This document shows, one piece after another, positions 1,743 through 19,069 of a stretch of 48,822 nt of DNA (position 1 is its first letter; every line of letters starts with the position of its first letter). This DNA is from an uncultured Thiodictyon sp. (GTDB taxonomy: Bacteria; Pseudomonadota; Gammaproteobacteria; Chromatiales; Chromatiaceae). A program made the position numbers and the translations under genes. Location: contig NZ_CAJAXH010000058.1 of NCBI RefSeq assembly GCF_903946935.1, positions 1 to 48,822 of the forward strand. The letters run 5' to 3'. The notes beneath the pieces were generated by a model, which saw only the letters and a program-made list of their open reading frames with translations, was not told the origin of the DNA and did not search any database.

Positions 1743-2543
1743 GTGACAGACCGACGACAAGTGCTCCTGACGCGACTCGGCTTTCGTTTCGGCATCAACG
1801 GACCGCATGCCGCACGCACGATGATGTTGGACGACCTGCGCCATCTACTGGCGCGCACACCAGCGTCGTCGTCGCGGCAGGACTATGGCTGCGCGATCGT
1901 CACCGACAATCTTCTGGGCAAATCCACGAGGAAGGCGCGCGAGTTGTCCCTGAGGCATCTCACCACACTCTACGGCCTCGACGCTGCCAACCCCCTGTTT
2001 CGGGCGCTTCGGCGTCTTTGGCCTTTGGATGCAGCGGCCCAGCCTCTGCTTGCCTTGACGGTCGCCCTGGCCCGAGACCCGCTACTGCGGACTTCCGAGG
2101 GTTTCGTTCTGTCCAGACCCGTCGGATCATTGGTGTCCCCGCAGGACGTGGAAACATTCGTGGCCGAAGCCTTCCCCGACCGCTTCAGCAGCGCCTCGTT
2201 GAAGTCATTTTCCCGCAACTTGGCAGGCACATGGACTGCCGCGGGCTTCCTGAATGGACACCGGCGCAAGACCAGGTCGCTACCCGACGTGCGCCCTGAG
2301 GTGGTCACACTGAGTCTTTTCCTTGGTCATCTGGAGGGCCGCTCAGGTCAGCGGCTGTTCTCCTCGCAATGGATGGCATTGCTCGGTGGCACACCCGCTG
2401 AGCTGGCAGCGCTGACCAACGCAGCAGCACACCGCGGGCTGCTTGTATTCATGAACGCCGGGGGAGTCCAGGAAGTCAGGTTCCCCGACTATCTGACCCC
2501 CGAGGAAGAACACATCAGACAGGAGGCCGCGCATGTCGTCTAG
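1743..2543 (+). CDS. brxA: BREX BrxA-like protein
   Basis: This is the first gene of the BREX operon, occupying the BrxA position directly upstream of brxB. BrxA proteins are small helical, NusB-like DNA-binding proteins (DUF1819). The 266-residue product has the helical, Leu/Arg-rich character expected, with segments such as LFRALRRLWPLDAAAQPLL and WTAAGFLNG, but it is somewhat longer than the usual roughly 200 residues. The start is a GTG at 1743 without a good ribosome-binding site; an ATG at 1733 in another frame runs into a stop at once. The end overlaps brxB by 11 bases, which suggests coupling. Assignment rests on gene order and general resemblance more than on a diagnostic motif. Confidence 0.6.
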   Translation: MTDRRQVLLTRLGFRFGINGPHAARTMMLDDLRHLLARTPASSSRQDYGCAIVTDNLLGKSTRKARELSLRHLTTLYGLDAANPLFRALRRLWPLDAAAQPLLALTVALARDPLLRTSEGFVLSRPVGSLVSPQDVETFVAEAFPDRFSSASLKSFSRNLAGTWTAAGFLNGHRRKTRSLPDVRPEVVTLSLFLGHLEGRSGQRLFSSQWMALLGGTPAELAALTNAAAHRGLLVFMNAGGVQEVRFPDYLTPEEEHIRQEAAHVV

Positions 2544-3096
2544 GGTTCAGAAACTCACCGCAGCCTACCGCGCGCACCTCACTGTGCCATGGCAGATGGG
2601 GCTGGCCGCGATCCAGCGCGTCGTCTTCGCGGTCTACGACAAGACCGACGAGCTGCGCCTGCGGGCCAACGTGGATGAGTTTGCGCTTGCCACGCAGCAA
2701 GCCGGCAAACAGTGGCTCCTCATCGACCTGACGAACGCCTTTCCCGAATGGATGATGGGGCAGAAATACCGCGATGCCTATTTCGAGAGCCCAGAGGACT
2801 TGGCCGGGTATCCGAGCGGCGAGCTGACCGGATTCGTTGCCGACCTTGTCGCCAGGCTCAAGACCAGAATCGAGGCACAGAGCGGCCCCGACACCGTGGT
2901 CGCACTGCTAGGTGTCGGCACACTGTTCGGTCTCGCGCGTGTTTCGAGCGTCGTCGAGGGCATCAAGGAGTCGGTCACCGGGCGGCTGTTGGTCTTCTTC
3001 CCGGGTGAACACCACCCTGAACACCACAGCTACCGCCTGCTCGACGCGCGGGACGGCTGGAACTACCTCGCCGTGCCATTGTTCGCCAAGGACTGA
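2533..3096 (+). CDS. brxB: BREX protein BrxB (DUF1788)
   Basis: A 187-residue protein matching the DUF1788/BrxB family, a core cytoplasmic component of type 1 BREX whose biochemical role is unresolved. Family-like features are the conserved LLIDLTNAFPEWM stretch near residue 60, the central VVALLGVGTLFGLARVS segment (about residues 120-136) and the C-terminal GRLLVFFPGEHH motif followed by YRLLDARDGWNYLAVPL. The length is normal. It starts inside the end of brxA and is followed 35 bases later by brxC, so the three genes form one transcription unit. Confidence 0.88.
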   Translation: MSSRVQKLTAAYRAHLTVPWQMGLAAIQRVVFAVYDKTDELRLRANVDEFALATQQAGKQWLLIDLTNAFPEWMMGQKYRDAYFESPEDLAGYPSGELTGFVADLVARLKTRIEAQSGPDTVVALLGVGTLFGLARVSSVVEGIKESVTGRLLVFFPGEHHPEHHSYRLLDARDGWNYLAVPLFAKD

Positions 3097-3131: not shown

Positions 3132-6100
3132 ATGCTAAATCGCGACATCTACAGCACGCCACCAAAGGAAAATCGTCTAGCCAATAACGGTGTGGCAGAG
3201 GTATCGGAGGACTACTCCGAGGCTGCTGCCGCCGTCCTGCGTTACGAGCTCGAAACCTTTGTCTGCGACGGGCAGTACGAGAAAGGTCTGGAGACCATCC
3301 TCGACAAGTTCCTGCTCAACCTGGACTCGAAGACCGAGCAGCCCGGTGTCTGGATCAGCGGTTTCTATGGCAGTGGCAAGTCTCACCTGGCGAAGATGCT
3401 GCGTACCCTTTGGACGGACTACAGCTTCGCCGACGGCGCGGCGGCGCGCAGCATCGCCAAGCTCCCGACTGGGGTGTTCGAGCACCTCAAAGAGGTCTCG
3501 ACGCAAGGCCGGCGCCATGGCGGTCTGCACGCGGCGGCCGGCAAGCTGGGGGCGGGCGCCGGCGACCGGGTGCGTCTGGCGTTGCTCGGAATCGTTTTTA
3601 AGTCCAAGGGGTTGCCGGAGCAATACAACCAGGCCCAGCTCGTGCTGTGGCTCAAGCGCGAAGGACTGCTGGAGGCGGTCGAGGCCGAGCTCAAACAGGT
3701 AGGATGCACGCTCGGTCAGGAACTGATGGACATGTACGTGTCGGGCGACCTGGCCAAGGCGCTGCTCAAGGCCCGTCCTGATCTGGCCCACACCGAGCAG
3801 GAGGCTCGCAGTCTGGTGAAGGCGCAGTTCCCGCAGGTCACCGACATCAGCAGCGAGCAGATGGTCACCGCGATCGAGTCGGCACTGGCGAGTGACGGCA
3901 AGTTCCCGCTCACCCTGGTCGTGCTCGATGAGGTGCAGCAATACATCGGCTCCGATGCCGAGCGTGCCTTCCAGGTGCAGGAGCTGACCGAAACCCTGTG
4001 CAAGCACTTCAAGGGCAAGCTGTTGTTTGTCGGCACGGGGCAATCCGCCCTGTCGGGCATGCCCAACCTACAGCGGCTGATGGGGCGCTTCCCGGTACCG
4101 ATCATGCTCGGTGACTGGGATGTGGAGAACGTCACGCGCCAGATCATCCTCGCCAAGAAGCCGACCGCGCAGCCGCAGATCGAACAGGTCTGGCGCGCCA
4201 ACCTGGGCGAGATCTCCCGCCATCTGCACGGCACCAAGCTTGAGCACGTCACGGCGGACGAAAATTGGATGACCTGTGACTACCCGCTGCTGCCGGTGCG
4301 TCGGCGCTTCTGGGAGCGCGTGTTGCGCACCATCGACACCACCGGCACGGTGTCGCAACTGCGCAGCCAGCTGCGCGTGGTGCATGAGGCCGTACTGGCC
4401 ACCGCCGACGCCCCGCTGGGTCACGTCGTCGCGGGCGACTTCCTGTACGACCAGATCGCCGCCAACCTGGTCTCGACCGCCCAGTTGCCGAAAGAGGTGT
4501 TCGACAACGTCCAGCGCTTTGCCGCGGGCGATGCCGATGCGTCGCTGAAAGCAAGACTGCTCAAGCTTGTGTACCTGATCAATAAGCTGCCCGCCGATGC
4601 CGCCGTGGACATCGGCCTCAAGGCCACCGAAGAGGTTCTGGCCGACCTGCTGGTGACGGATCTCACCGCCGGCTCCAACGAGCTGCGCAAGCAACTGCCC
4701 TCGCTGCTCAACGAGTTGCAGAACAAGGACCGCCTGATCATGGCCTTGGCTGGCGGTAGTGGCACCGAGTACCGCCTGCAGACCCGCGAGTCCAGCGCCT
4801 GGTATGACGAATTCCGTGCCCAGGAGGCCGAACTCAAGGCCGCTCCGCAGCGCGTGGAGCAGAAGCGTTCTGACCTGCTGAAAGGGCGCTTCGGCGAGGT
4901 GCTGAAGAAGGTCCGGGTCGTCCAGGGTAAGGACAACGTCGAGCGCAGGCTGCACCCGACCTACGACGAGACCCTGCCCAAGGACAACGACCGTGCCCTG
5001 TACCTGTGGATTCAGGATGGCTGGCAGTCCGACGAGAAATCAGTCATCGCCGAGGCGAAGTCCAAGAGCACCGACAACCCGACGCTGTTTGTCTTCCTGC
5101 CGGCACAGAACAAGACGGAGCTCGCCAACGCCATCGTCGCGTTGGAGGCGGCGCGGACCACCTTGCAGAAGAAGGGCACCCCCACCACCGGAGAGGGTGA
5201 GGATGCGCGGCGCTCGATGGAGAGCCGCAGCCGCACGGCCGAGAAGGACCTGGTCGACCTGCTGGACAGACTCTTTACCGATGTGCGCGTGTTCCAGGCG
5301 GGCGGCCAGGAGGCCACGGACGGAAACGACCTGGCGGAGCGCATTAGCCGTGCGGGGAAGGCCTCCGCCATTCGGCTGTTCGGCCAGTTCGATGCGGCGG
5401 ACCACGACCAGTGGAGTAAGGTGCTCGATGAGGCCCGCAAGGGCAACCGCGAAGCGCTCAAGGCCGTGAGCCATACCCAGGAGGCCGACAAGCACCCCGT
5501 CTGCCAGCGGTTGCTCGCCTATATTGGCCCCGGTAAGAAAGGCGCCGAGGTCCGCGACCACTTCGATGGCGCGCCCTACGGGTGGCCGCGCGACGCCATT
5601 GACGGTGCCCTGTATGCGCTGCTGGCCGCCGGCCACCTCAAGGCCACAGACGCGACCGGCAAGCCGGCCGACGCCAAGGGGCTGGATCGCGCCAAACTCA
5701 CCCAGGCCAGCTTCCAGCGCGAGTCGATCAACATCTCGCCGCCACAGTTGATCAAGATTCGGCAGTTGTTCAGCGCCGTCGGCGTACCCTGCCAGCCCAA
5801 GGAGGAGCAAGCCAAGGTGCCCGTGCTGCTGGTCAGACTGCGCGAGCAGGCCGGCAAGTCCGGGGGAGTGGCGCCAGCGCCGGGGACGCCCAAACTCGAC
5901 ACCGTCGAGGCCGTGGAGGGGCAGTCCGGTAACGCCCTGCTGCTGGAGCTTTACAACCGCTGCGACGAGTTCGCAGGTCTGTCGAAGCAGTGGGTTAAGA
6001 CCGCCGACGACATCGCCAAGCGCCTGCCGACCTGGCACAAGCTGGGTGACCTGCTGCGCCACGCCAAGACGCTGGGGCCTTACGCCGGGCTAAAGGCCGA

Positions 6101-6593
6101 GGCCGACGCCATCGAGGCGCAGCGCAGTCTGCTGGCTGAGCCAGACCCGGTGCGTCCGTTGCTCGACCGGGTGGTCGACCTGCTGCGCCAGGCACTCAAT
6201 GCCAAGCTGGACGCCTACCGGTCAGCCTTCCAGGAACTCCAGGCACAACTGGCCGCGGATGCCGACTGGAACCGGTTCAGCGACGCGCAGCGCTCCGACC
6301 TGATCACCAAGCATCACCTCACACCGCTGGCCGCGGTCGCGCTGGGCACGCCGGAGCAGCTTCAGGACGCGCTGGACGACTGCGATCTCGACCACTGGGT
6401 CGCCAAGACCCAGGCCTTGCCGAGCCGCTTCGATGCCGTCCGCCATGCAGCGGTGCAGTTGCTCAAGCCGAACGTGGTGCATGTGACCATCCCGCGGCGC
6501 ACCTTGAACGACGAGGCCGAGTTGCAGGACTGGCTGGCAGAGGTGGAAGCCTTGCTGAGCGAGAAGCTCAAAACTGGCCCCGTGGCTTTGTAA
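3132..6593 (+). CDS. brxC: BREX P-loop ATPase BrxC
   Basis: A 1153-residue ATPase of the BrxC/PglY family, the large P-loop subunit of BREX. The N-terminus has the typical opening (MLNRDIYSTPPKENRLANNG). A Walker A motif GFYGSGKSH lies at about residues 77-85 and a Walker B-like VVLDEVQQYIGSD at about 263-275. The long C-terminal half is helical and charged, as in the family, and the length is normal. It follows brxB by 35 bases. Downstream, instead of pglX directly, a toxin-antitoxin pair intervenes before the operon resumes. The frame is intact. Confidence 0.92.
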   Translation: MLNRDIYSTPPKENRLANNGVAEVSEDYSEAAAAVLRYELETFVCDGQYEKGLETILDKFLLNLDSKTEQPGVWISGFYGSGKSHLAKMLRTLWTDYSFADGAAARSIAKLPTGVFEHLKEVSTQGRRHGGLHAAAGKLGAGAGDRVRLALLGIVFKSKGLPEQYNQAQLVLWLKREGLLEAVEAELKQVGCTLGQELMDMYVSGDLAKALLKARPDLAHTEQEARSLVKAQFPQVTDISSEQMVTAIESALASDGKFPLTLVVLDEVQQYIGSDAERAFQVQELTETLCKHFKGKLLFVGTGQSALSGMPNLQRLMGRFPVPIMLGDWDVENVTRQIILAKKPTAQPQIEQVWRANLGEISRHLHGTKLEHVTADENWMTCDYPLLPVRRRFWERVLRTIDTTGTVSQLRSQLRVVHEAVLATADAPLGHVVAGDFLYDQIAANLVSTAQLPKEVFDNVQRFAAGDADASLKARLLKLVYLINKLPADAAVDIGLKATEEVLADLLVTDLTAGSNELRKQLPSLLNELQNKDRLIMALAGGSGTEYRLQTRESSAWYDEFRAQEAELKAAPQRVEQKRSDLLKGRFGEVLKKVRVVQGKDNVERRLHPTYDETLPKDNDRALYLWIQDGWQSDEKSVIAEAKSKSTDNPTLFVFLPAQNKTELANAIVALEAARTTLQKKGTPTTGEGEDARRSMESRSRTAEKDLVDLLDRLFTDVRVFQAGGQEATDGNDLAERISRAGKASAIRLFGQFDAADHDQWSKVLDEARKGNREALKAVSHTQEADKHPVCQRLLAYIGPGKKGAEVRDHFDGAPYGWPRDAIDGALYALLAAGHLKATDATGKPADAKGLDRAKLTQASFQRESINISPPQLIKIRQLFSAVGVPCQPKEEQAKVPVLLVRLREQAGKSGGVAPAPGTPKLDTVEAVEGQSGNALLLELYNRCDEFAGLSKQWVKTADDIAKRLPTWHKLGDLLRHAKTLGPYAGLKAEADAIEAQRSLLAEPDPVRPLLDRVVDLLRQALNAKLDAYRSAFQELQAQLAADADWNRFSDAQRSDLITKHHLTPLAAVALGTPEQLQDALDDCDLDHWVAKTQALPSRFDAVRHAAVQLLKPNVVHVTIPRRTLNDEAELQDWLAEVEALLSEKLKTGPVAL

Positions 6594-6644: not shown

Positions 6645-6911
6645 ATGGTGACCCGGATCTTCAAGAGCGGCAACTCGCTTGCCGTACGCATTCCCAAAGA
6701 GCTGGCCTTTGCCGAGTCCGTGCAGGAGGTCGAGATCGAACGCATTGGCAACACCTTGGTGGTGCGGCCTGTCGTGCAGGAAACGATCGGCGATCTTACG
6801 GCAATTCTGGCGGCGTTTCCGCGGGACTTCATGGCCGAGGGCCGCGAATTCCATGAGCAGAAGGAGCGTGACTGGTCGGCCTTTTCCGGCAAGCAGCCCG
6901 ACGCCGAGTAG
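6645..6911 (+). CDS. vapB: VapB-type antitoxin (AbrB/MazE fold)
   Basis: An 88-residue antitoxin. Residues 1-50 form a SpoVT/AbrB swapped-hairpin DNA-binding domain, with the signature FKSGNSLAVRIPKELAF and the following VEIERIGNTLVVRP. The C-terminal tail (about 51-88, acidic/aromatic, with WSAFSGKQPDAE) is the kind of disordered segment that wraps a PIN toxin. It is followed 8 bases later by a PIN-domain gene, the standard VapBC order. It has its own AT-rich palindromic upstream region, so it may be transcribed independently of brxABC as well as by read-through. Confidence 0.88.
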   Translation: MVTRIFKSGNSLAVRIPKELAFAESVQEVEIERIGNTLVVRPVVQETIGDLTAILAAFPRDFMAEGREFHEQKERDWSAFSGKQPDAE

Positions 6912-6919
6912 ACCCACAC

Positions 6920-7327
6920 ATGCGCTACCTGCTTGACACCAACATCTGCATCCACCTGATTGATCGGCATCCGCCGCAGGTCCTGGCGCGCCTGTCGCCC
7001 TTGCCTCTGGGTGATGCTGTGATGTCGGTCATCAGCTATGCCGAGCTTTGGCATGGCGTCGAGCGCTATGCCGACGAGGATCGGGACAGCGCTGCCCGCG
7101 CCTTGAGGCGGCTGGTTGCGCGTGTCCCTGTTCTCGATTACCCCGCCTTGGCGGCAGAGCACTACGGTGTATTGGCTGCCGCCGTCAAGGATCGTCGGCG
7201 TGATGTGATGGACCGTCTGATTGCCGCCCATGCCCTCAGCCTCGGCCTGACACTGGTTACCAACAATGAAGCGGATTTCGTCGGCTATCCGGGCCTGACC
7301 GTGGAAAATTGGGTGAGCGAGCCATGA
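6920..7327 (+). CDS. vapC: VapC-type PIN-domain toxin
   Basis: A 135-residue PIN ribonuclease, expected to cleave RNA (often initiator tRNA) when released from VapB. It opens with MRYLLDTNICIHLI, containing the first catalytic Asp. SYAELWHGVER provides the conserved Glu, and the C-terminal acidic cluster is in RRDVMDRLIAAHAL and LVTNNEADF. All four acidic positions seem present, so the toxin should be active. Its stop overlaps the start of pglX in an ATGA junction, tying expression of the toxin-antitoxin pair to the BREX methyltransferase. This coupling is unusual for a simple passenger. Confidence 0.9.
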   Translation: MRYLLDTNICIHLIDRHPPQVLARLSPLPLGDAVMSVISYAELWHGVERYADEDRDSAARALRRLVARVPVLDYPALAAEHYGVLAAAVKDRRRDVMDRLIAAHALSLGLTLVTNNEADFVGYPGLTVENWVSEP

Positions 7328-10300
7328 GCAGTCCCCTCCCCAAACCACTGCGCACCCAACTGGAAAGCACCGTCAAGTCCGCCCGCGACCTGGCCGAACA
7401 GGCCGCCCGCGCCGCCTTGGCGCAGCTCGCCGTCGGCGAGGCCAAGGCGCCCGACTACCTGACCGCCGACCTCAAGGCGCTGCGCCGCCGCCTGCGTGCC
7501 CATGGCCGCGCGCTCGGCGACGTCAAGCAGCAGGACGACACCCAGGAGGTCCGGCGCCTGGTCTGGGAGGCGGCCTACGAGCACTGGCACCGGATGTTGT
7601 TCGCCCGCTTCCTCGCCGAGAACGGCCTGCTGCTCTGGGAGCCCGGCGCACCGGTGTCGCTGGACGACTGCCGGGACATGGTGGACCACCACCCCGAGCT
7701 GGCCCTGGGTGCCAAAAGCCAATGGGAACTGGCCGGCCGGCTCGCCGCGCGCATGTTGCCCCAGGTGTTCAAGCCGCACAGCCCGGCGTTCGAGTTGACC
7801 TTCGCGCCGGAGCATCAGCGCGCGTTGGAGCGGCTGCTGGCCGACCTGACTGCTGAGGTCTTCCAGGCCAGCGACAGCCTGGGCTGGGTCTATCAGTTCT
7901 GGCAGGCCAAGCGCAAAGACGAAGTCAACGCCTCCGAGGTGAAGATCGGCGCGGACGAGTTGCCCGCCGTCACCCAGCTCTTCACTGAGTCCTACATGGT
8001 GGACTTCCTGCTCCACAACTCGCTGGGGGCCTGGTGGGCTGCCCGTCGCCTGAGCCCGGATGACCTGTGCGACGCCGAGACCGAGGACGCGTTGCGCCGC
8101 AAGGTAGCGATCCCCGGCGTACCCCTGGAATACCTCCGCTTCGTCCGCGCCCCCGCTTGCGATTGCGATTACGTAGTCAGGGCTTCCAGCCCTGACGATT
8201 CCCACGCGGCGGGAACCGACTCGTCAGGCCAGGATGGCCTGACTACGATAAGGATGGACGAACAGACCCTCGCCATCGGCCACGGCGAGCACCTGCCCCA
8301 CTGGACCTGCAACGGCGCCGTCTACCATATCGTCTGCCGCCTCGCCGACGCTATTCCCCAATCCAAGCTTGACCAGTGGGCCGCGCCCCTGTCCCGCGAA
8401 GAACCCGGCCAGCAGACCGACCAGGCTCAGCAAGAAGCCCGTTACCGCAGGTTCAAAGAGATCGACACCTGGCTCGATTCCGGCTACGGCGCCTCCCATC
8501 TGCGCCAACCCGCAATCGCCGAGATCGTCGCCAACGCGCTTAAGTATTTCGATGGCGACCGCTATCGGCTGCACGCCTGGTGCGTCATGCCAAACCACGT
8601 CCACGTTATAGTCGAACCCTTGGGCGACAACCCCCTGTCGAAGATCATCCACAGTTGGAAGTCTTTTACCGCGAATGCGATCAACCGCCGCCTCGGGCTC
8701 AGCGGTGCCCTCTGGCAGGCCGATGCCTACAACCACATCATCCGCACGCATAAGGAATACGAATACCAGGTTCGCTACGTCTGGCACAATCCGGACAAGG
8801 CCAATATCCCCAACTGGCCATGGCGCTGGACCGCCGATTGCGTAGTCAGGGCTTCCAGCCCTGACGATCCCCCAGCAGCGGGAACCCAATCGTCAGGCCA
8901 GGATGGCCTGACTACGCAGGGCGCCTGCGCCTATGTAGTCAGGGCTTCCAGCCCTGACGACCCCCAAGCGGCGAGAACGGAATTGTCAGGCCAGGATGGC
9001 CTGACGACGCAGAACACCGCGAGCGCCTGCGCCTACGCCGGCGTAGTCAGGGCTTCCAGCCCTGACAATCCGCAAGCAGCGGGAACCGAATCGTCAGGCC
9101 AGGATGGCCTGACTACGCAGCAGCCCCGGTGCTGGACCCCCGCCGCCGGCGCCTTCGAAGGCTGGCCCGACACCCTGAAGGCATTCAAGCTGTTGGACCC
9201 CTGCTGCGGCTCGGGTCATTTCCTGGTCGCCGCCTTCCTGCTGCTGGTGCCCATGCGCATGGCGGCCGAGGGCTTGAACGCGCGCGACGCGGTGGACGCG
9301 GTGCTGGCCGACAACCTGCACGGCCTGGAACTCGACGCCCGCTGTGTCGAGATCGCGGTCTTTGCCTTGGCGTTGGCGGCCTGGCGCTTCCCGGACGAGC
9401 ACGGCGACCCGCTGGGCGTGCGGGCCGACATGCCGGCGCCCAACATCGCCTGCTGCGGACTGAAGGTGGCGGCCAGCGCCAAGGACTGGGAGGCGCTGGT
9501 CCCCGATTCGCAACCCAACGCCGCACTGCTGCGCCAGGAGCTGCGCCTGCTGCACGCCGGCTTTGCGCAGGCTCCGCTGCTGGGTAGCCTGCTGGACCCG
9601 GCTCGCAGCCTGAAGGACGACCTGTTCAAGTCCAGTTTCGACGATCTGAAGGGCCTGCTGGAGCTTGCCTTGGCGGCCGAGACGCCGACCACGCGGTGGG
9701 GGACGGGGCAGGAGTTGAACGACGACGCCTGGGACTTGGCTTTGACTGCGCGCGGTCTGCTGGATGCGGCTCGGCTGCTGGATGCGCGGTATCACTTGGT
9801 CATTACCAACGTGCCTTACCTGGCACGGGGCAAGCAGCACGAAGCACTGAAGGCCTACTGCGATACCCACTACCCAGAGTCCAAGACAGACTTGGCCACT
9901 GTGTTCCTGGAGCGTGGCATTGAGCTATGTGTTGCCAATGGAAGCCTAGCAGTTGTCAGTCCCCAAAACTGGTGGTTCCTCGGCGGCTACCAAAAATTCA
10001 GAGTAACTTTGTTAGAACTGGTGAGCATTGAGTTGCTTGTGGCGCTCGGCGAAGAAGCTTGGCAGCACTTCGGGGATAGGGGGCCGCTTGCCACACTGAC
10101 ATTGATTTCAAAGCGTAAGCCATCTTCCGCGCAAATGGCATCAGGAATTGATACCCTGCTAAGAAAGTCAATTGAAGAAAAGGCCGAATTGCTCAGAAGC
10201 CAAGGTCCACCCCAGCGCTTACTTCAAGCTGGTCTGCGCGCCAATCCAGATAGCCGCATCGCATTCGTAGAGATTACGGCGGAACTGCTCAGCAAACACG

Positions 10301-11718
10301 CCGACTCCTTCAAAGGAATGTCTACCGGGGACCTGAATAGATTTATTCATGAATTCTGGGAGGTCCCTGGTAAGGATGCCGATTGGGTGAACTTCCAAGG
10401 AACGCCAGAAGAATCCTGCCTCCACGGGGGGCGCTCGCAAATCTTGCGCTGGGAAGGTGGCACCGGAGACATGGTGCAGCAACCATCGTGCTATGTGAAG
10501 GGTGGCAGGGCTTGGGGTCGAAAGGGAGTCTTTCTGTCTCAGATGCGTAGTCTTGCTGCAACCTTGTATGAAGGCCAGCACTTTGACGAGAACGGAGCTG
10601 CGATCGTTCCGGACTCTCCAGAGAACATTGCCGCCATCTTCACGTTTCTGAGCAGCCCTGAGTATCGGGTGGCAGTAAAAGCGATTGATGCCGCAGTCAA
10701 GGTTACGAATAAGACACTCATAAAGGTCCCCTTTGACCTTGACCGCTGGAAGTCTGCCGCGCAGAAGATATATCCCCACGGCCTACCCAAACCCTATTCC
10801 GACGACCCCACCCAGTGGCTCTTCCACGGCCACCCCCAGCCCGCCACCGACCCGCTGCAAGTCGCCGCCGCCCGCCTTCTGGGCTACCGCTGGCCGGCCG
10901 AGACCGACGCCGAAATGGAACTCTCCGACGAGGCCCGCGCCTGGATCACCCGCTGCGAAGCCCTGGCCGGTCATGTGGATGACGACGGCATCGTCTGCCT
11001 GTCCTGCGTGCGCGGTGAGCCGCCCGCCCACGACCGCCTGCTGGCCCTGCTCATCGCCGCCTGGGAGACCGTCGAGCCCGGCAGTTGGAGGCCCAGCATC
11101 CTGGCCAAGCTGCTGGCGGACAGCGATTGCGCCGGCAAGGACCTGGAGGTCTGGCTGCGCGACAAGTTCTTCGCGCAACACGCCAGGCGCTTCCAGCACC
11201 GTCCCTTCATTTGGCATGTCTGGGACGGACTCAAGGACGGCTTCGGCGCCCTGGTGAACTACCACCGTCTCAATGCCCGGAACCTGGAGCGCCTTATCCA
11301 CACCTACCTGGGCGACTGGATTCGCCAGCAGGAGGCCGGCGTGCGCGACGCCGTGGACGGTGCCCAAACCCGCCTGGCCGCTGCCCAAGACCTGAAGCGC
11401 CGCCTCGAACTCATCCTGGAAGGCGAGTTTGATGGCAAGGTTGGCTACGACATCTTCGTGCGCTGGAAGCCGCTCAGTGAGCAGCCCAGCGGCTGGAACC
11501 CGGATCTCAACGACGGTGTGCGCATGAACATCCGCCCCTTCATGACCGCCGGGGTCCTGCGCCACAACAAGAAGCCCAAACTCAATATCGGTTGGGACAA
11601 GGACCGCGGCAAGGATGTCGCGAGCGCCCCCTGGTACGCAGTATTCAAGGGCGAGCGCATCAATGACCATCATCTGACGCTGGCCGAGAAAGCCGCCACC
11701 CGCGGAGCATCATCATGA
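7324..11718 (+). CDS. pglX: BREX adenine methyltransferase PglX with in-frame RAYT insertion
   Basis: PglX/BrxX, the site-specific adenine methyltransferase that marks host DNA in BREX. The ATG at 7324 overlaps the vapC stop. Residues 1-283 are the normal N-terminal region, ending near LEYLRFVR. Residues 284-598 are foreign: REP-derived peptide plus a complete RAYT domain. PglX sequence resumes at WTPAAGAFEGWP, with SAM-binding motif LDPCCGSGHF (D625) and catalytic motif NVPY (N829), then the long target-recognition C-terminus. Without the insert the protein would be about 1149 residues, the usual size. No stop or frameshift interrupts the 1464 codons. The insertion falls in a linker just before motif I, so activity may survive. 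The 4-base overlap with the next gene implies translation still runs through. Function is inferred; a dead methyltransferase is possible. Confidence 0.88.
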   Translation: MSSPLPKPLRTQLESTVKSARDLAEQAARAALAQLAVGEAKAPDYLTADLKALRRRLRAHGRALGDVKQQDDTQEVRRLVWEAAYEHWHRMLFARFLAENGLLLWEPGAPVSLDDCRDMVDHHPELALGAKSQWELAGRLAARMLPQVFKPHSPAFELTFAPEHQRALERLLADLTAEVFQASDSLGWVYQFWQAKRKDEVNASEVKIGADELPAVTQLFTESYMVDFLLHNSLGAWWAARRLSPDDLCDAETEDALRRKVAIPGVPLEYLRFVRAPACDCDYVVRASSPDDSHAAGTDSSGQDGLTTIRMDEQTLAIGHGEHLPHWTCNGAVYHIVCRLADAIPQSKLDQWAAPLSREEPGQQTDQAQQEARYRRFKEIDTWLDSGYGASHLRQPAIAEIVANALKYFDGDRYRLHAWCVMPNHVHVIVEPLGDNPLSKIIHSWKSFTANAINRRLGLSGALWQADAYNHIIRTHKEYEYQVRYVWHNPDKANIPNWPWRWTADCVVRASSPDDPPAAGTQSSGQDGLTTQGACAYVVRASSPDDPQAARTELSGQDGLTTQNTASACAYAGVVRASSPDNPQAAGTESSGQDGLTTQQPRCWTPAAGAFEGWPDTLKAFKLLDPCCGSGHFLVAAFLLLVPMRMAAEGLNARDAVDAVLADNLHGLELDARCVEIAVFALALAAWRFPDEHGDPLGVRADMPAPNIACCGLKVAASAKDWEALVPDSQPNAALLRQELRLLHAGFAQAPLLGSLLDPARSLKDDLFKSSFDDLKGLLELALAAETPTTRWGTGQELNDDAWDLALTARGLLDAARLLDARYHLVITNVPYLARGKQHEALKAYCDTHYPESKTDLATVFLERGIELCVANGSLAVVSPQNWWFLGGYQKFRVTLLELVSIELLVALGEEAWQHFGDRGPLATLTLISKRKPSSAQMASGIDTLLRKSIEEKAELLRSQGPPQRLLQAGLRANPDSRIAFVEITAELLSKHADSFKGMSTGDLNRFIHEFWEVPGKDADWVNFQGTPEESCLHGGRSQILRWEGGTGDMVQQPSCYVKGGRAWGRKGVFLSQMRSLAATLYEGQHFDENGAAIVPDSPENIAAIFTFLSSPEYRVAVKAIDAAVKVTNKTLIKVPFDLDRWKSAAQKIYPHGLPKPYSDDPTQWLFHGHPQPATDPLQVAAARLLGYRWPAETDAEMELSDEARAWITRCEALAGHVDDDGIVCLSCVRGEPPAHDRLLALLIAAWETVEPGSWRPSILAKLLADSDCAGKDLEVWLRDKFFAQHARRFQHRPFIWHVWDGLKDGFGALVNYHRLNARNLERLIHTYLGDWIRQQEAGVRDAVDGAQTRLAAAQDLKRRLELILEGEFDGKVGYDIFVRWKPLSEQPSGWNPDLNDGVRMNIRPFMTAGVLRHNKKPKLNIGWDKDRGKDVASAPWYAVFKGERINDHHLTLAEKAATRGASS
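8173..8246 (+). repeat. REP pair (BIME), copy 1, left of RAYT
   Basis: Two opposed GTAG-headed REPs. GTAG is followed by the hairpin TCAGGGCT-tcc-AGCCCTGA, a 24-base spacer, then the hairpin TCAGGCCA-gga-TGGCCTGA and CTAC. The outer ends GTAGTCAGG/CCTGACTAC also pair. GTAG heads are typical of RAYT-linked REPs. In the pglX frame it encodes VVRASSPDD...SGQDGLTT. Confidence 0.9.
8842..9116 (+). repeat. Tandem REP pairs (BIME), copies 2-4, right of RAYT
   Basis: Three more copies of the same 74-base REP pair, at 8842-8915, 8935-9008 and 9043-9116. Starts are 93 and 108 bases apart, and copy 2 starts 669 bases after copy 1; all are multiples of three. Spacers share the phrase GCGCCTGCGCCTA, so the array probably grew by tandem duplication. 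Copy 3 has a diverged right end (GACGAC instead of GACTAC). Confidence 0.9.
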
Positions 11719-12971
11719 AAGTCCTGTCCCTGCACCTGATCAATTTCCGTGGTATCGCGGAGCTCAGGGTCGACTTCACTGAGCAAACCACCGCCTTCGT
11801 GGGCATCAATGGGGTGGGCAAGTCCGCCGTACTGGACGCCTTGGCCATCGCCTTGTCCCAACTCATCTGGCGGATCAATGGCAGTCCTCAAAAGGCGCGG
11901 CAGATCGCCCTGGACGATATTCGGCACGGCGCCGATTTCGCGCGGATCTCGATGACGGTTCATTTGCCTGGGGGAGAGGTGCAGTGGGCGATCGCGAAGA
12001 ATCGCAAGGGGGGGCAATATGCCGATCCGCTTCGCAAGAGTGATCTGGATGCCTTGAATGAGGCAGCAAGAAAAGTGGTGGACCTTTGGGATCATGTCGA
12101 ATCCGACAACCTACCGCTGGCGGTGTATTACGACGTGAACCGTACCGTGCTTGAAATCCCTATGCGCGTCAGGGAACAGCTACGGATTAACCCCTATGAA
12201 GTCTACCAGGATGCATTGGATCACGGTGGTGCAGACTTCAAGCGATTCTTCATCTGGTTCCGGAATTTCGAGGACGCTGAAAACGAACGGCGTACGGAAG
12301 ACCCCGAGCATCGTGAGCCCGGACTACAGGCAGCCCGCACTGCAATTACTGCATTCACCGGGTTTGAAAACCTGCGAGTTCGCCGAAAACCGCTTTTGCG
12401 CATGACCGTCACCAAGGGAGGCGACGAGTTCAACGTGCTGCAACTCTCGGATGGTGAGCGCAACATGCTGGCGCTGGTGGGTGACTTGGCCCGGCGCCTG
12501 AGCGTACTCAACCCGAGTCTGGCGAATCCTAATAAGGGCGGGGGCGTGGTGCTCATTGACGAAATCGATCTGCACTTGCACCCACGCTGGCAACGCGAGG
12601 TAGTCGGAAAGCTGGAGCGTACGTTCCCGCACTGCCAATTCATCATCTCCACGCATTCCCCGCAGGTCGTGGGCGAACTCAAGGCCACTTCGGTCATGCT
12701 GCTGAAGGACGGCGCTTTGTTGGGTCATGCCGAGCGGGCCTTGGGTTTGAGCAGTGGCGAAGTACTGGAGGAACTGATGGAGGGGCGCGCCCGCAACGCG
12801 TCCGTTGAAACCGCACTCGACGATCTGCGAGGCCTCATCGACGAGGACCGCCTTGACGAGGCCCACGTAAAACTGGAGCGACTGAGGTCCCAGGTCGGTG
12901 ATATCCCGGAGGTGCTGGAGGCCCAGAGTGCCATTCAGAGCCTGGAGTTGGCAGAGGGCAATGAGGCATGA
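11715..12971 (+). CDS. ptuA: Septu-like ATPase PtuA
   Basis: A 418-residue ABC/SMC-type ATPase of the RecF/OLD group, paired with an HNH nuclease gene as in Septu defence. The N-terminus KVLSLHLINFRGIAEL is typical. Walker A GINGVGKSA is at about 30-38, the signature LSDGERNM at about 243-250, Walker B VVLIDEIDLHLHP at about 277-289, and the switch histidine is in ISTHSPQVV. There is no TOPRIM domain, so the effector must be the neighbour. It overlaps pglX and ptuB by ATGA junctions. The same ATPase/HNH pair also serves as effector of some retrons, but no reverse transcriptase is present. Septu senses phage and cuts nucleic acid; its trigger here is unknown. Confidence 0.8.
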   Translation: MKVLSLHLINFRGIAELRVDFTEQTTAFVGINGVGKSAVLDALAIALSQLIWRINGSPQKARQIALDDIRHGADFARISMTVHLPGGEVQWAIAKNRKGGQYADPLRKSDLDALNEAARKVVDLWDHVESDNLPLAVYYDVNRTVLEIPMRVREQLRINPYEVYQDALDHGGADFKRFFIWFRNFEDAENERRTEDPEHREPGLQAARTAITAFTGFENLRVRRKPLLRMTVTKGGDEFNVLQLSDGERNMLALVGDLARRLSVLNPSLANPNKGGGVVLIDEIDLHLHPRWQREVVGKLERTFPHCQFIISTHSPQVVGELKATSVMLLKDGALLGHAERALGLSSGEVLEELMEGRARNASVETALDDLRGLIDEDRLDEAHVKLERLRSQVGDIPEVLEAQSAIQSLELAEGNEA

Positions 12972-13687
12972 GGTCGATCGCCAAGGGTCCAGTGCCGGGA
13001 GCGCTTATCCAGTGGAAGGCCGATAACGCGGCAACGCCACAGAACCTCAATTATGAGGGTGGGGGCTTTCCGCGCGAAGCGGTGCGCCAGGCGCTGCTTG
13101 CCGAGCAGTTCCACCTGTGCGCCTACACGATGAGGCGACTGCGCACGGCAGCCGAATGTACGGCAACGGGCGCAGACACCGCGGCGTCGTGCCATGTCGA
13201 GCATCTGTTGCCGCAGGCGCGCGGCATTGCAGCTGAAAGCATCGACTACCAGAACATGCTGGCGTGCTTTCCACCCAGTCAGTCCAAGGCGGCTTGCGAA
13301 TACGGGGCGCATGCGAAGAAGAACTATGACCCCGCAAACCAGCCCTTCGTCTCGCCGCTACGCCCCAACGCCGAGCAGCATTTCACATTCGATGACGGAG
13401 CAGTCGTTGCTACTTCTTCGGCAGGGGAGGCAACGGTCAAGGTGTTGAACCTGAATCACAAGATACTGGTCGATGACCGCCGGGCAACGATACGCGGTTG
13501 GCTGTACCCCAAGCAGGGCAAGCCTGTTTCCGCTGCAATGGCTCGCCGAATCGCACAGGCAGTCACCAGCCCGGATGCGCATGGCTACTTGCCCGCCTAC
13601 TGCGCGGCGGTGGCCGCGGCAGCGATGGCGCACGCCGAACGGGCTGAGCGCAGGGCCGCGCGGCTCAAGGGCAAGGGGGCACCATGA
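12968..13687 (+). CDS. ptuB: Septu-like HNH endonuclease PtuB
   Basis: A 239-residue HNH-type nuclease of the TIGR02646/PtuB group. The core motif is CHVEHLLPQ (about residues 75-83), followed by IDYQNMLACFPP and CEYGAHAKKNYD, then FVSPLRPNAEQHF. Its upstream Cys motif reads CAYT rather than the CxYC of many relatives. It is the expected partner of the preceding ATPase, forming the nuclease half of a Septu complex. The start overlaps the ptuA stop, and its own stop overlaps pglZ, so it is expressed as part of the BREX operon. The final residues (ERAERRAARLKGKGAP) are a basic tail. Confidence 0.78.
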   Translation: MRSIAKGPVPGALIQWKADNAATPQNLNYEGGGFPREAVRQALLAEQFHLCAYTMRRLRTAAECTATGADTAASCHVEHLLPQARGIAAESIDYQNMLACFPPSQSKAACEYGAHAKKNYDPANQPFVSPLRPNAEQHFTFDDGAVVATSSAGEATVKVLNLNHKILVDDRRATIRGWLYPKQGKPVSAAMARRIAQAVTSPDAHGYLPAYCAAVAAAAMAHAERAERRAARLKGKGAP

Positions 13688-16026
13688 GCACGCTCAAGCA
13701 AGCGCTGCTGCACAGCCTCGCAGCCAGCGCCAAGGTCAACAGTTCCGTTCTGGCCAGGCCGGCCGCGATTCTTTGGACAGATGCGGAGTCGGTTTGGCGG
13801 CCGGTGTTCCCGGCGCTGCGCCAGGACCTGCCCGGTCTGCTGCAACTGGGCACGTTCAACCCTGAGCAGGCACAGGGGCCGGCCATCTGGCTCAAGTGCG
13901 CGGTTGGTGGGCAACTGCCGGAGCTGGTGCCCGATGGCCACCTTTGCGTCATCTATCTGCCGGGAATCAGCCGTGCGGACCTGCGCGCCATCGAAAGCTG
14001 CCCGCGCGACCTCCAGCCGCTGGCAGAATTGCAGTATCGCGGTGTGTTCTGGAGTCAGCTCAATGGTAAGGACTGGACGATCAATGCCTTCCTGACCTCC
14101 AGGAACGGCGGCCTGGGTCTGGACGTGGCGCAGGACAAGGCCACGCAGGAGGCGCTCGGCCAGGCCCTGGCCGCTGGCGTCCTGTTGGACCGGTCGGTGC
14201 AAGAGCTGAAGGGGCGCCAGATCAACGCCGAGTGGTTGCACAGCCTGCTGGCACCGAATCCCACGCGGGATCTCCTGGTATGGATGGACGATCCCGATGC
14301 GGCACAGGCGCTGTGGGGAAGCACCCGCTGGGACGTGTTCCTCAAGCGGTGCAAGGCGGACTTCGGCTTCCATCCGGTGAGCGACGGCCCTTTGGCAGCC
14401 GCCGAGCGGCTGGCCCGGGGGGACGGCAAGTGGTCGGCCGTCGCGGAGCTCTACCGCGATTCGTTCGCGAGCTTCTCCAAGGTCTACGCGCTACTTCTGA
14501 AGGTTGCGCCGCCGCCGCAGCAGGATTTGTTCGACGCCGCATCAAAGCTGGCAGGCTATCCCCAGGTGAACGAGCAGAAGGAGGAGGCCCTGCGCTACGC
14601 GCTGGCGGCCTGCGGTGCCATGACCGCTGACCAGGCGCGCGCGGCCATTCTGGCGGCCGAGCAGGGCCACGGGCTGCGCCGCGACTGGTTGTGGACGCGC
14701 ATGGGCCTGTCGCCGCTCGGGGTGGCCCTGGGGCACCTGGCCGAGGTGGCGTCGCGCAGCGCGCAACTGCCGGCCGGTTCGGTGCCCGATCAGTTGGCCC
14801 AGAGCTACCAGGACAGCGGGTGGCAGGTGGATGCCGCGGCGCTCCGGGTGCTGGGGGCCGTCCAGACCAAGACGGATCTCGATGCGGTCTCTGCGGCACT
14901 GCGCGCCGTCTATCTGCCCTGGATCGAGGAGTCTGCCAGGCGGCTGCAGACTGCCCTGATGGCGTCCGGCGGGCTCAGCGCTGCCGGCAAGGCGCCGGAC
15001 TGTACGAACGTCCCGGCGGCTGGGGTCTGCACGGTCTTTGTGGACGGTCTGCGTTACGACGTGGCGGTCGCGCTCAAGGAGCGCCTGGCCGTCACCGGCA
15101 AGGTGGAGTTGGCGGCGTGCTGGACCAGCCTGCCGTCGGTGACGGCGTCCGGTAAGGCCTGGTGCTCTCCGGTTGCGCACCTGGTGTCCGGGGACCCGAC
15201 CGACCAGGGGTTCGAGCCGCGGGTCGCCGCCGACGGCAAGCCACTCTCCGGACACCACTTCCGCAAGCTGCTGGCCGACAGCGGCATCCAACCCCTGGAC
15301 ACGCACGAGACCGGCGACCCGTCGGGCCGGGCCTGGACCGAGGCCGGCGATCTCGATCACTATGGCCATGCCCATGGGGTGCGGCTTGCCCGCGACCTCG
15401 ACGCCCAACTGGCCCAGGTGCTGGAGCGCATCTGCGAGCTCCAGCAGGCGGGGTGGAAGCACCTGCGCATCGTGACCGATCACGGCTGGCTCCTGATGCC
15501 TGGCGGTCTGCCCAAGTCCGAGCTGGCCACGCACGAGACCGAGACGAAATGGGGGCGCTGCGCCGTCCTCAAGGACAACGCACACGGCACGCCGCTCACC
15601 TTTGGCTGGAGCTGGTGCGACGCGGTGCAGGTGGCGTACGCGCCTGGCGTATCCTGTTTCATCGCTGGGATCGACTATGCCCATGGGGGCTTGAGCCTTC
15701 AGGAGTGCCTGGTGCCCGTGCTGTCGCTGGAGGTCGAGCGTGCCGCGGCGGCTGATGTGAAAGTCGACATTCGCGCCGTGACCTGGAAGGGACTGCGCTG
15801 TCTGGTAGAGGTGGAGACCATGGCCGAAGGGCTCACGGTTGACATCCGAACCAAGGCGGCGCTGGCATCCACGTCGCTGGTGGCTAGCCGGAAAGGCTTG
15901 GACGGTGGCAAGGCCAATCTGGCGGTTGCCGACGACGATCAGGAGGGCTCGGCGGCCGTGGTGGTCGTGCTGAGCCCTGGTGGTGAGGTCGTGCAGAAGG
16001 TGGCGACCACGGTCGGCGGGTCGTAG
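13684..16026 (+). CDS. pglZ: BREX alkaline-phosphatase-fold protein PglZ
   Basis: A 780-residue PglZ, the BREX component with an alkaline phosphatase-like metal-binding fold, needed for both methylation and exclusion. The phosphatase part is C-terminal: VFVDGLRYDV (about 451-460) with the first metal-binding Asp, TDHGWLLMPGG (about 597-607) and YAHGGLSLQECLVP (about 663-676). The N-terminal half is the variable helical region. The length suits the shorter variant seen in type 1 systems. The ATG overlaps the ptuB stop. It is followed by a REP pair and then brxL, the only large gap in the cluster after vapB. Confidence 0.9.
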   Translation: MSTLKQALLHSLAASAKVNSSVLARPAAILWTDAESVWRPVFPALRQDLPGLLQLGTFNPEQAQGPAIWLKCAVGGQLPELVPDGHLCVIYLPGISRADLRAIESCPRDLQPLAELQYRGVFWSQLNGKDWTINAFLTSRNGGLGLDVAQDKATQEALGQALAAGVLLDRSVQELKGRQINAEWLHSLLAPNPTRDLLVWMDDPDAAQALWGSTRWDVFLKRCKADFGFHPVSDGPLAAAERLARGDGKWSAVAELYRDSFASFSKVYALLLKVAPPPQQDLFDAASKLAGYPQVNEQKEEALRYALAACGAMTADQARAAILAAEQGHGLRRDWLWTRMGLSPLGVALGHLAEVASRSAQLPAGSVPDQLAQSYQDSGWQVDAAALRVLGAVQTKTDLDAVSAALRAVYLPWIEESARRLQTALMASGGLSAAGKAPDCTNVPAAGVCTVFVDGLRYDVAVALKERLAVTGKVELAACWTSLPSVTASGKAWCSPVAHLVSGDPTDQGFEPRVAADGKPLSGHHFRKLLADSGIQPLDTHETGDPSGRAWTEAGDLDHYGHAHGVRLARDLDAQLAQVLERICELQQAGWKHLRIVTDHGWLLMPGGLPKSELATHETETKWGRCAVLKDNAHGTPLTFGWSWCDAVQVAYAPGVSCFIAGIDYAHGGLSLQECLVPVLSLEVERAAAADVKVDIRAVTWKGLRCLVEVETMAEGLTVDIRTKAALASTSLVASRKGLDGGKANLAVADDDQEGSAAVVVVLSPGGEVVQKVATTVGGS

Positions 16027-16061: not shown

Positions 16062-16112
16062 GTAGTCAGGGCTTCCAGCCCTGAGGATGTCAGGCCAAGA
16101 TGGCCTGACTAC
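16062..16112 (+). repeat. REP pair, short form, between pglZ and brxL
   Basis: Same GTAG-headed REP pair as inside pglX, but with the central spacer almost gone (51 instead of 74 bases) and AAG rather than AGG in the second loop. It fills the 139-base gap between pglZ and brxL and could act as a hairpin that lowers downstream transcription or stabilises the upstream mRNA. Confidence 0.88.
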
Positions 16113-16165: not shown

Positions 16166-18211
16166 ATGCAACTCGACGACCTGGACAGGAAAGCGGCGAC
16201 CGCCTTCGAGGGCTATGTCGTGCGCAAAGACCTGGTCCGCACCTTCAGCCGGCAGTTCCCGGTCCCTACCTATGTCGTGGAGTTCCTGCTCGGTCGCTAT
16301 TGCGCGACCATCGACGAGGCGGAGATTCAAGAGGGGTTGGACATCGTCCAGCGGCAACTCGGCTCCCGCACGGTGAAGGCGGGGGAGGAAGAACTGTTCA
16401 AGGCGCGTGCACGCGAGTCGGGGTCGGTCAAAATCATCGACATCGTCACGGCACGTCTGGACGCGAAGACCGACTCCTATGTCGCGACCTTGCCCAGCCT
16501 GCGGCTGACGGATGTCCGGCTGACGCCGGAAATGGTCACGGACAACGAACGGATGCTGACGGGCGGCTTCTACGCCGAGATTACGCTAAGTTATGACGCC
16601 TCGATCGCGCAGGAAAAGGGCGGGCGGCCCTTTGGCGTCGACGCTCTTCGCGCCATCCAGTTGTCCAAGCGCGAGGTTTTGGACCTGCTGGCTAAGGGAC
16701 GACAGGGCTTTTCCACATCAGAATGGCGCGACCTGTTACTGCGCAGCGTCGGTTTCGAGCCGGGCACCCTGTCCGAGCGGGCCAAAGATGCCCTGCTGCT
16801 GCGCATGGTGCCGTTCGTGGAGCGCAACTACAACATGGTCGAGCTCGGCCCGCGCGGCACCGGCAAGTCGCACCTGTTCCAGCAGGTATCACCCTATGCC
16901 CACCTGATTTCGGGCGGCAAGGCGACAGTGGCCCGCATGTTCGTCAACAACTCCACCGGCCAACGCGGCCTGGTGTGTCAGTACGACGTGGTCTGCTTCG
17001 ACGAGGTGTCGGGCGTCTCCTTCGACCAGAAGGACGGGGTCAACATCATGAAGGGCTACATGGAGAGTGGCGAGTTCTCGCGCGGCAAGGAGAGCATCCG
17101 CGCTGACGGTTCGGTGGTCATGGTGGGTAACTTCGAGGTGGACGTGGAGCACCAGCAACGCATCGGCCACCTGTTCGGTCCGCTGCCGCCCGAGATGCGC
17201 AACGACACCGCCTTCATGGACCGCATCCACTGTTTCTTGCCGGGCTGGGACCTGCCCAAGCTGAACCCGGGCCTCTTTACCGAGCACTTCGGTCTGGTGA
17301 GCGATTTCCTGTCGGAGTGTTTCACCCAACTGCGCAACCGCAGTCGCGTGTCGGTGCTGCAGGGGCGCGTGTTCTGGGGCGGTGCCCTGTCCGGCCGCGA
17401 CATCAATGGCGTCAACAAGACGGTCAGCGGCCTGCTCAAGTTGCTGCAACCGGATGCCGGCACGCCGGTCAGCGATGAGGACCTGGAGTGGGCGGTGCGC
17501 CTCGCCCTGGAGGTGCGCCGCCGCGTCAAAGAACAGCAGAAGCGCATTGGCGCCGCCGAGTTCCGCAACACACACTTCAGCTACACGATGGGCGCCGAGG
17601 GTGTCGAGAAGTTCGTGTCGACGCCGGAGCTGCAAAGCCCGGGTGGGATCGGCGATGAGCCCCTGGAGTGCGGTCAGATCTGGACCCTGAGCCCCGGCGG
17701 GCAGGACGAGCATCCGGGCATCTTCCGGCTGGAGGTGACCGAAGGGCCGGGCAGCGGGGTGCGGGTGTTGAACAACCCGGTGCCGCCGGCGTTCAAGGAG
17801 TCGATCCGGTGTGCCGAGCAGAACCTTTACGCCCGCTCGCAACAGCTGGTCGGCGACCGGGACCCGCGCGCCCATGAGTTCTCGGTGCAACTGCGTGGCT
17901 TCGACGCCGCGAAGACCGGCGCCAAGACCGCCGTGGCGGCCTTGATCGCGCTGTCGAGCGCACTGCTGAAGAAGTCGGTCCGCGGCGGACTGGTGGTCGT
18001 CGGCGAGGTGACGCTCGGCGGCTCCATCGAGCCGATTGACAATGCGGTGACGCTGGCCGAGTTGGCGGTCGAGAAAGGCGCCAAGTCGCTGCTCCTGCCG
18101 GTCGCGTGCCGCCGGCAGCTGTTCGACCTGTCGGACGAGATGGCCACGAAGCTCGACATCGAGTTTTATCAGGACGGGCGGGACGCGCTGCTCAAGGCGT
18201 TGGTGGACTGA
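16166..18211 (+). CDS. brxL: BREX AAA+ protein BrxL
   Basis: BrxL (681 residues), the AAA+ ATPase with a Lon-like C-terminal domain that acts in phage exclusion in type 1 BREX. It opens with the family's QLDDLDRKAATAFEGYVVRKDLV region, has Walker A GPRGTGKSH at about 228-236 and Walker B VVCFDEVSGV at about 276-285, and ends in a Lon-like fold (GGLVVVGEVTLGGSIEPID). In that domain the segment aligning with Lon's DGPSAG reads TGAKTA (about 584-589), so the protease serine seems to be replaced by Lys. This suggests it is not a Ser/Lys protease. An AAGGGG ribosome-binding site precedes the ATG. It is the last gene of the BREX cluster. Confidence 0.92.
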   Translation: MQLDDLDRKAATAFEGYVVRKDLVRTFSRQFPVPTYVVEFLLGRYCATIDEAEIQEGLDIVQRQLGSRTVKAGEEELFKARARESGSVKIIDIVTARLDAKTDSYVATLPSLRLTDVRLTPEMVTDNERMLTGGFYAEITLSYDASIAQEKGGRPFGVDALRAIQLSKREVLDLLAKGRQGFSTSEWRDLLLRSVGFEPGTLSERAKDALLLRMVPFVERNYNMVELGPRGTGKSHLFQQVSPYAHLISGGKATVARMFVNNSTGQRGLVCQYDVVCFDEVSGVSFDQKDGVNIMKGYMESGEFSRGKESIRADGSVVMVGNFEVDVEHQQRIGHLFGPLPPEMRNDTAFMDRIHCFLPGWDLPKLNPGLFTEHFGLVSDFLSECFTQLRNRSRVSVLQGRVFWGGALSGRDINGVNKTVSGLLKLLQPDAGTPVSDEDLEWAVRLALEVRRRVKEQQKRIGAAEFRNTHFSYTMGAEGVEKFVSTPELQSPGGIGDEPLECGQIWTLSPGGQDEHPGIFRLEVTEGPGSGVRVLNNPVPPAFKESIRCAEQNLYARSQQLVGDRDPRAHEFSVQLRGFDAAKTGAKTAVAALIALSSALLKKSVRGGLVVVGEVTLGGSIEPIDNAVTLAELAVEKGAKSLLLPVACRRQLFDLSDEMATKLDIEFYQDGRDALLKALVD

Positions 18212-19018: not shown

Positions 19019-19069
19019 GTAGTCAGGGCTTCCAGCCCTGACGGTGTCAGGCCAAGATGGCCTGACTAC
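19019..19069 (+). repeat. REP pair, short form, upstream of rlpA
   Basis: A 51-base copy of the GTAG-headed REP pair, nearly identical to the one at 16062, including part of the left flank (GGCCAGC...GCGTAGTC). It sits in the 627-base non-coding stretch 18657-19283. The rest of that stretch is AT-richer up to about 18900 and shows no convincing gene, RNA or clear promoter. Confidence 0.88.

Follow-up and report, generated by a model that had tools for sequence, protein, structure and literature searches.

Here we describe a gene for the bacteriophage exclusion (BREX) type I methyltransferase PglX that holds a REPtron within its reading frame, that is, a REP-associated tyrosine transposase (RAYT) together with repetitive extragenic palindromic (REP) hairpins. 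The gene lies on a 48,822-nucleotide contig of an uncultured Thiodictyon sp. (NZ_CAJAXH010000058.1), which was analysed over its whole length and is hereafter referred to as the window; all features given for it are on the + strand. Positions 7324–11718 translate without a stop over 1464 codons, and the Pfam domains Eco57I, MmeI_Mtase and Y1_Tnp all fall on this one 1464-aa chain. An initial annotation, made from the sequence, had proposed such an uninterrupted PglX–RAYT–PglX frame, which translation and domain scans bear out. Two stretches of the protein match the 1125-position PADLOC PglX profile, the better one from profile position 272 onwards, corresponding to aa 601. The insert (8146–9132; 987 nt, 329 codons) is bordered by YLRFV and WTPAAG, and its site is empty in relatives. 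It is composed, in order, of one REP pair (8172–8247), the RAYT domain (LPHW to WPWRW, 8293–8829) and three further REP pairs (8841–8918, 8935–9008 and 9042–9116), all read in frame. The first pair comprises inverted, GTAG-tagged hairpins; in the third the tag is altered, its second half ending in GACGAC. The initial annotation overlooked the four REP pairs flanking the RAYT. Each of the five other frames of the insert contains 4–17 stops, and in 5000 shuffles of its bases the sense frame was open just once. The RAYT is not a stand-alone gene in the window but is embedded in pglX, the insert lying shortly upstream of the translated motif DPCCGSGHF (9196–9222), which we take to be S-adenosylmethionine (SAM) motif I of PglX.

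The domain is related to TnpA-REP, as seen by sequence (4er8, E 8.9e-7) and by structure (Foldseek, E 9.1e-6), and it is flanked by GTAG-tagged REP hairpins as RAYTs are. Its HUH motif (NHVHV, 8593–8607) and the motif YVWHNP (8776–8793) were located from the translation and from an alignment of fused RAYTs, in which H102 and H104 of the HUH motif and Y162 are invariant (11 of 11). The tyrosine of YVWHNP is presumably catalytic. The first 907 residues were modelled with AlphaFold from 29 sequences, with a mean predicted local distance difference test (pLDDT) of 74.5 and a predicted template modelling score of 0.67. In this model the RAYT occupies residues 331–500 at a pLDDT of 62–93, between a helical bundle (mostly 74–97, with a dip to 44–47 at residues 201–220) and the methyltransferase part (mostly 75–97, with dips to 50). 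The REP-encoded residues 281–330 and 511–600 score 21–42, so that the RAYT is probably flanked by two unstructured stretches. Foldseek ranks six PglX chains first and then the RAYT 4er8 as the best non-PglX fold match, in agreement with the sequence searches. Fold prediction thus supports the tolerant linker that the initial annotation had postulated: the RAYT is modelled as a domain of its own amid low-confidence, REP-encoded stretches.

REPtrons with GTAG-tagged REPs, as outlined in passages of PMC2817692 and PMC3733652, share with the insert an HUH single-tyrosine nuclease, inverted REP pairs and the 4er8 fold match. There, however, they are separate genes with REP flanks, whereas here RAYT and REPs are read within a host protein. 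The relevant passages of PMC3733652 describe both REPtrons and translated intragenic REPs; the latter, like the Rickettsia palindromic elements, are palindromes translated in frame, with dimers adding 20–30 aa and clusters 43–82 aa. Those elements are short and non-autonomous, whereas here the transposase itself is in frame; sections 15–16 of that paper contain no REPtron inside a reading frame. Inteins, group I introns and IStrons (PMC4227781, PMC3984707) are also in-gene elements that spare the gene product. Introns and inteins are spliced out, whereas the insert has no splicing domain (Pfam) and its best Rfam matches are below cut-offs. An intron or intein was rejected on these grounds, and the insert should therefore stay in the PglX protein. 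MmeI-like type IIG enzymes, as presented in part of PMC11341690, likewise unite nuclease and methyltransferase on one chain, but the nuclease in the window is an HUH domain that has been inserted and comes with repeats of its own.

The same linker is occupied in other genomes. We took the best 80 of 174 loci; some of the query peptides came from RAYTs, which biases the set towards PglX that carry one. Alignment of 76 PglX gave 69 distinct sequences with both sides readable, in which insert classes were assigned by eye; seven rows were left out, one as a duplicate and six for want of the N part (including L073, which has a RAYT, and L120 and L132, which dropped out in trimming). The linker is insert-free in 49 of the 69 (often YLRTLDDGTPAAG or similar), carries short inserts in 12, some of them repeat-like, and large ones in eight, namely seven RAYTs and one DUF559 nuclease. 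The last (L134, 4712–9091) is in frame in the same linker, and LPSPSG..GAGGEG-like repeats adjoin it and recur elsewhere in that PglX. In all, nine genomes have a RAYT at this linker: that of the window, G005 (locus L154), G575 (L073), G124 (L202), G030 (L156), G001 (L152), G007 (L153), G577 (L131) and G576 (L094). Both the empty site and the further fusions that the initial annotation had suggested looking for were thus found. The bins holding L094, L131 and L073 are labelled Candidatus Kuenenia, Deltaproteobacteria and Alphaproteobacteria, respectively, with the taxon unsure, and the contig carrying L073 is 3829 bases long. When five fused PglX were scanned with the PADLOC profile they scored 1398–1613 bits, the best stretch starting at profile position 271–273. 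Recurrence at one spot in several bacteria suggests that pglX is a lasting home for such elements. In addition, an L153-type RAYT (L163, 3204–4148) adjoins apparent decayed pglX fragments.

That the window pglX is a pseudogene or a product of misassembly is barely credible. The genome is a draft in 321 contigs, the fused gene of G030 has lost its core, and in G001 (taken to be Lamprocystis purpurea DSM 4197) a second, window-type pglX is divided between two contigs, each of which terminates in REPs at the insert site. Yet the frame is open, purifying selection acts on both sides of the insert (see below), and the same insertion is present in independent assemblies, including that of G007, where a full-length PglX–RAYT fusion sits in a genome of three contigs; on this last ground an assembly chimera was rejected. 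No second intact pglX, a finding that would have spoken against the initial annotation, turned up in the window's own genome (99.96% complete, though in 321 contigs): of six matches, the five others are partial (26–50% identity), one of them being the antisense strand of the window locus.

The REPs are concentrated in pglX in four genomes. Matches to a degenerate REP pattern at ≤2 mismatches, which unrelated REPs would escape, were assigned to genes by arithmetic on gene limits; those within pglX number 5 of 5 in G575, 7 of 7 in G576, 5 of 6 in G124 and 5 of 7 in G030 (22 of 25 in total). All five G001 copies of the REP type that flanks L152 likewise lie in that pglX, and in L202 and L152 REPs occur in a second pglX linker as well. 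An L152-type REP was also seen near a contig end (L167, G005:C375:31-53), at the linker of another pglX fragment. The window REP is present in 19 of 194 family genomes, with copies free of mismatch to the degenerate pattern numbering 156 in G006, 113 in G001, 85 in G005, 28 in the window's own genome, 14 in G004 and 10 in G007. One REP half, GTAGTCAGGGCTTCCAGCCCTGAC, has 30 copies in the own genome at ≤2 mismatches, against 0 for the reversed control. At 26 REP loci outside pglX in that genome no open frame of >228 aa spans the repeat, and none of six other RAYT places there has the window REP inside the 2.3–8 kb checked.

Part of PMC8049555 treats RAYTs as vertically inherited single-copy genes that have been domesticated and whose function is unknown. 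A tree was built from 41 RAYTs (4 of 45, at <125 aa, were dropped). Those of the window, L154, L073, L156, L202, L094 and L152 form a single clade (100/99 support) in which no RAYT is free-standing; the L153 RAYT is placed with one embedded in HsdR and with two further RAYTs. On PglX trees with eight RAYT-labelled rows each (12 loci had no usable core), the RAYT label changes seven times on the methyltransferase-core tree (well-supported branches require at least six of these; 104 of 500 shuffles needed no more) and six times on the N-part tree (at least five required; 18 of 500 shuffles needed no more). Because a label change can be a loss, these trees alone do not show movement. Among the eight fused PglX compared pairwise, RAYT identity correlates with N-part identity (r 0.81; 1 of 2000 permutations as high) and less with core identity (r 0.43; 126 of 2000). 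The RAYT thus co-diverges with the PglX N part, yet its carriers are scattered on the PglX trees and one pair, L152 and L094, is discordant (RAYT 74%, N part 56%, core 43% identical). The comparison suggests that the RAYT has mostly been inherited along with the N part, having been lost or replaced elsewhere, and that at least one RAYT transfer between pglX genes has probably taken place. The idea that the clade mainly hops among pglX genes is weakened, as the covarying identities fit co-inheritance with losses.

Comparison of orthologous insertions shows purifying selection on the RAYT, as on the PglX N part. For the window and L154 the nonsynonymous rate (dN) is 0.024 and the synonymous rate (dS) 0.140, giving a ratio of 0.174 (bootstrap 0.067–0.358; binomial p 4.5e-5), next to 0.149 for the N part of the same pair. 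RAYT dN/dS is 0.170 for window/L073, 0.207 for L154/L073, 0.299 for window/L156 and 0.200 for window/L152; for L152/L094 it is 0.091 at a dS of 2.3, near saturation. An alternative is that in-frame insertions simply survive in any tolerant linker, the RAYT being a neutral passenger in decay. Short inserts in the same linker, a motif change in L131 and the core deletion in L156 would fit such drift, but a RAYT dN/dS of 0.17, binomial p values of 4.5e-5 and 5.0e-12 in two pairs, and the invariance of both HUH histidines and the tyrosine make it improbable.

A stronger competitor is that an HUH nuclease was recruited as a BREX domain, PglX gaining a single-strand nuclease that acts on phage DNA or on replication forks. 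Purifying selection on the RAYT and its long co-divergence with the PglX N part would be expected in that case. In L202, L156 and L094 the interval from YLRF to LPHW has no in-frame ATG, GTG or TTG, which makes independent initiation of the RAYT unlikely in these three hosts unless a start within PglX or the RAYT, or a rare codon, is used; a GTG that might serve as a start occurs in L152, L153 and L131. L131 retains HUH and tyrosine though no clear REP adjoins it, DUF559 represents a second kind of nuclease in the same linker, related RAYTs occur in HsdR and in a CARF-adenosine deaminase, and PglX, as characterized in part of PMC11341690, has no nuclease domain, unlike MmeI. Nevertheless, we regard recruitment as unlikely: the linker is empty in most PglX (49 of 69), most copies still have REPs beside them, in varying number, in the manner of an element, and the DUF559 insert too has repeat-like flanks.

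PglX itself appears to be functional. The BREX operon is complete in the window, in the order brxA–brxB–brxC–[MazE-like/PIN pair]–pglX–[PtuA/PtuB-like]–pglZ–brxL, and together with the profile match this operon identifies the gene as a BREX type I pglX; one or more BREX genes also adjoin the fused pglX in L154, L152, L153, L202, L156, L094 and L131. Between approximately aa 825 and 1125, the window and L154 are 37–60% identical, whereas the flanks are mostly 90–98% identical. By alignment with 8c45, the exchanged stretch is the end of the methyltransferase part and probably the target-recognition region, and its exchange fits a working, diversifying PglX. We take PglX to be probably functional because of the complete operon, the dN/dS of its N part (0.149) and of its C part compared with G001 (0.156), and this central exchange amid flanks of about 90% identity. 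In L156 (G030:C1:1225553-1228231), an 893-aa PglX–RAYT frame, about 590 codons are missing in frame with two REP sites as borders, and the core loss fits a REP-to-REP deletion. Exchange and deletion, along with the REPs in a second linker and a RAYT identity that follows the N part and hardly the core, could also mean that the RAYT nicks REPs in pglX, promotes recombination and so diversifies the gene. We consider this very improbable, since the borders of the stretch exchanged between RAYT-bearing alleles do not lie at the window's REPs.

Related RAYTs have other hosts. In the 194 family genomes the window RAYT gave 47 matches at E 1e-10, 11 of them in frames >600 aa. Ten of these long-frame hosts are six PglX, two HsdR (L164 and L203), one CARF-adenosine deaminase (L204; Cad1, we assume) and one methylase-like protein (L205); a 677-aa frame in G007 was discounted by eye. 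In L164, L203 and L204 the RAYT is in frame with repeat-like flanks. L205, whose RAYT has such flanks too, scores below the Pfam cut-offs for both N6_N4_Mtase and Y1_Tnp, and L206 joins a DUF1156 part to a RAYT with repeat-like flanks in a 456-aa frame ending shortly past the RAYT. All hosts in this small sample are defence or DNA-modification genes. As fusions, L166 (677 aa) and L170 (469 aa) were rejected, their upstream part looking antisense by composition (by eye). At L245 a RAYT lies in frame downstream of a Fic-like protein, also by eye. In a class-wide search, whose query derived from fused RAYTs and is biased towards them, 8 of 369 genomes matched; the other frames are 158–436 aa, so fusions are seen mainly in one family. 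RAYT searches gave three loci in viral contigs and one distant match in plasmids.

The best reading of these data, and one we hold to be probable, is that PglX still works and harbours a REPtron in its reading frame. In this view the RAYT, an IS200-like HUH nuclease with a single tyrosine, and its GTAG-tagged REP hairpins together occupy the short linker that joins the helical bundle of PglX to the methyltransferase core. Read-through translation would allow the RAYT to fold as its own domain, with the REPs forming two flexible tethers and PglX continuing to work. The element would mostly be an old resident, passed on with the PglX N part and lost or absent in many relatives, and at least one move from one pglX gene to another is probable. 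RAYT activity would be maintained by selection, most likely on the REPs, which would gain copies in place. On the sense strand the first REP half GTAGTCAGGGCTTCCAGCCCTGAC has a single open frame, with TAG or TGA in the others; most shifts or stops would therefore break the anti-phage gene, and the host gene would protect the element. The initial annotation anticipated part of this, namely an in-frame RAYT in a tolerant linker that spares its gene and a probably functional PglX; it was incomplete in missing the REP pairs, the recurrence, the conservation and the other defence hosts. More tentatively, and with some doubt, we suggest that this RAYT lineage may be an obligate resident of pglX: it would have no gene of its own, be produced within the BREX methyltransferase as one of its domains, keep most REPs inside pglX outside the window's genus, pass with pglX across phyla and occasionally move to the same linker of another pglX, being tolerated by read-through and not by splicing.

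Several observations weigh against a REPtron harboured by a functional PglX. The window REP is dispersed in the window's genus, and six inspected copies outside pglX in the own genome have a 3-nt spacer where the pglX pairs have 26. G006, with its 156 REP copies, has no RAYT of the window type at E 1e-20, which counts against a one-to-one link between REP and RAYT. The L131 RAYT has no clear adjoining REP, and its NP motif is changed. An ATG precedes the RAYT in the window, L154 and L073, making separate initiation possible there. dN/dS of the PglX C part is higher for window/L154 (0.344) and window/L073 (0.251), both values including the exchanged stretch. The sole single-contig genome, G030, has a fused gene without the methyltransferase core, and of the nine carriers, four either bear titles of bins or uncultured-organism assemblies or come from short contigs.

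The observation now goes beyond the initial annotation, to an in-frame REPtron that is recurrent at one linker, conserved and related to others in defence genes. In-frame copies in PglX, HsdR, the CARF-adenosine deaminase and DNA methylases tie RAYTs to phage defence; such embedded copies offer a natural experiment on why RAYTs are retained, and a nuclease-bearing PglX is a direct test bed for an HUH role in BREX. A whole-word search found no open-licence paper on a RAYT together with BREX, and no such title was among the matches listed.

In the rest of the operon, PADLOC profiles identify brxA (1743–2543), brxB (2533–3096), brxC (3132–6593), pglZ (13684–16026) and brxL (16166–18211). Between brxC and pglX lies a toxin–antitoxin pair (6645–7327) composed of a MazE-like antitoxin (6645–6911) and a PIN-domain toxin (6920–7327), the latter in an ATGA overlap with the pglX start at 7324. 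A PtuA/PtuB-like (Septu) pair (11715–13687), with pglX on one side and pglZ on the other, comprises a PtuA-like ATPase (11715–12971) in a second ATGA overlap, with the pglX end at 11718, and a PtuB-like protein (12968–13687). Both overlaps, reported in the initial annotation, are real. PtuA-like ATPase matches were also seen in the pglX/pglZ interval of L153, L094 and L157. A short-spacer REP doublet (16062–16112) lies between pglZ and brxL, and another is found at 19019.

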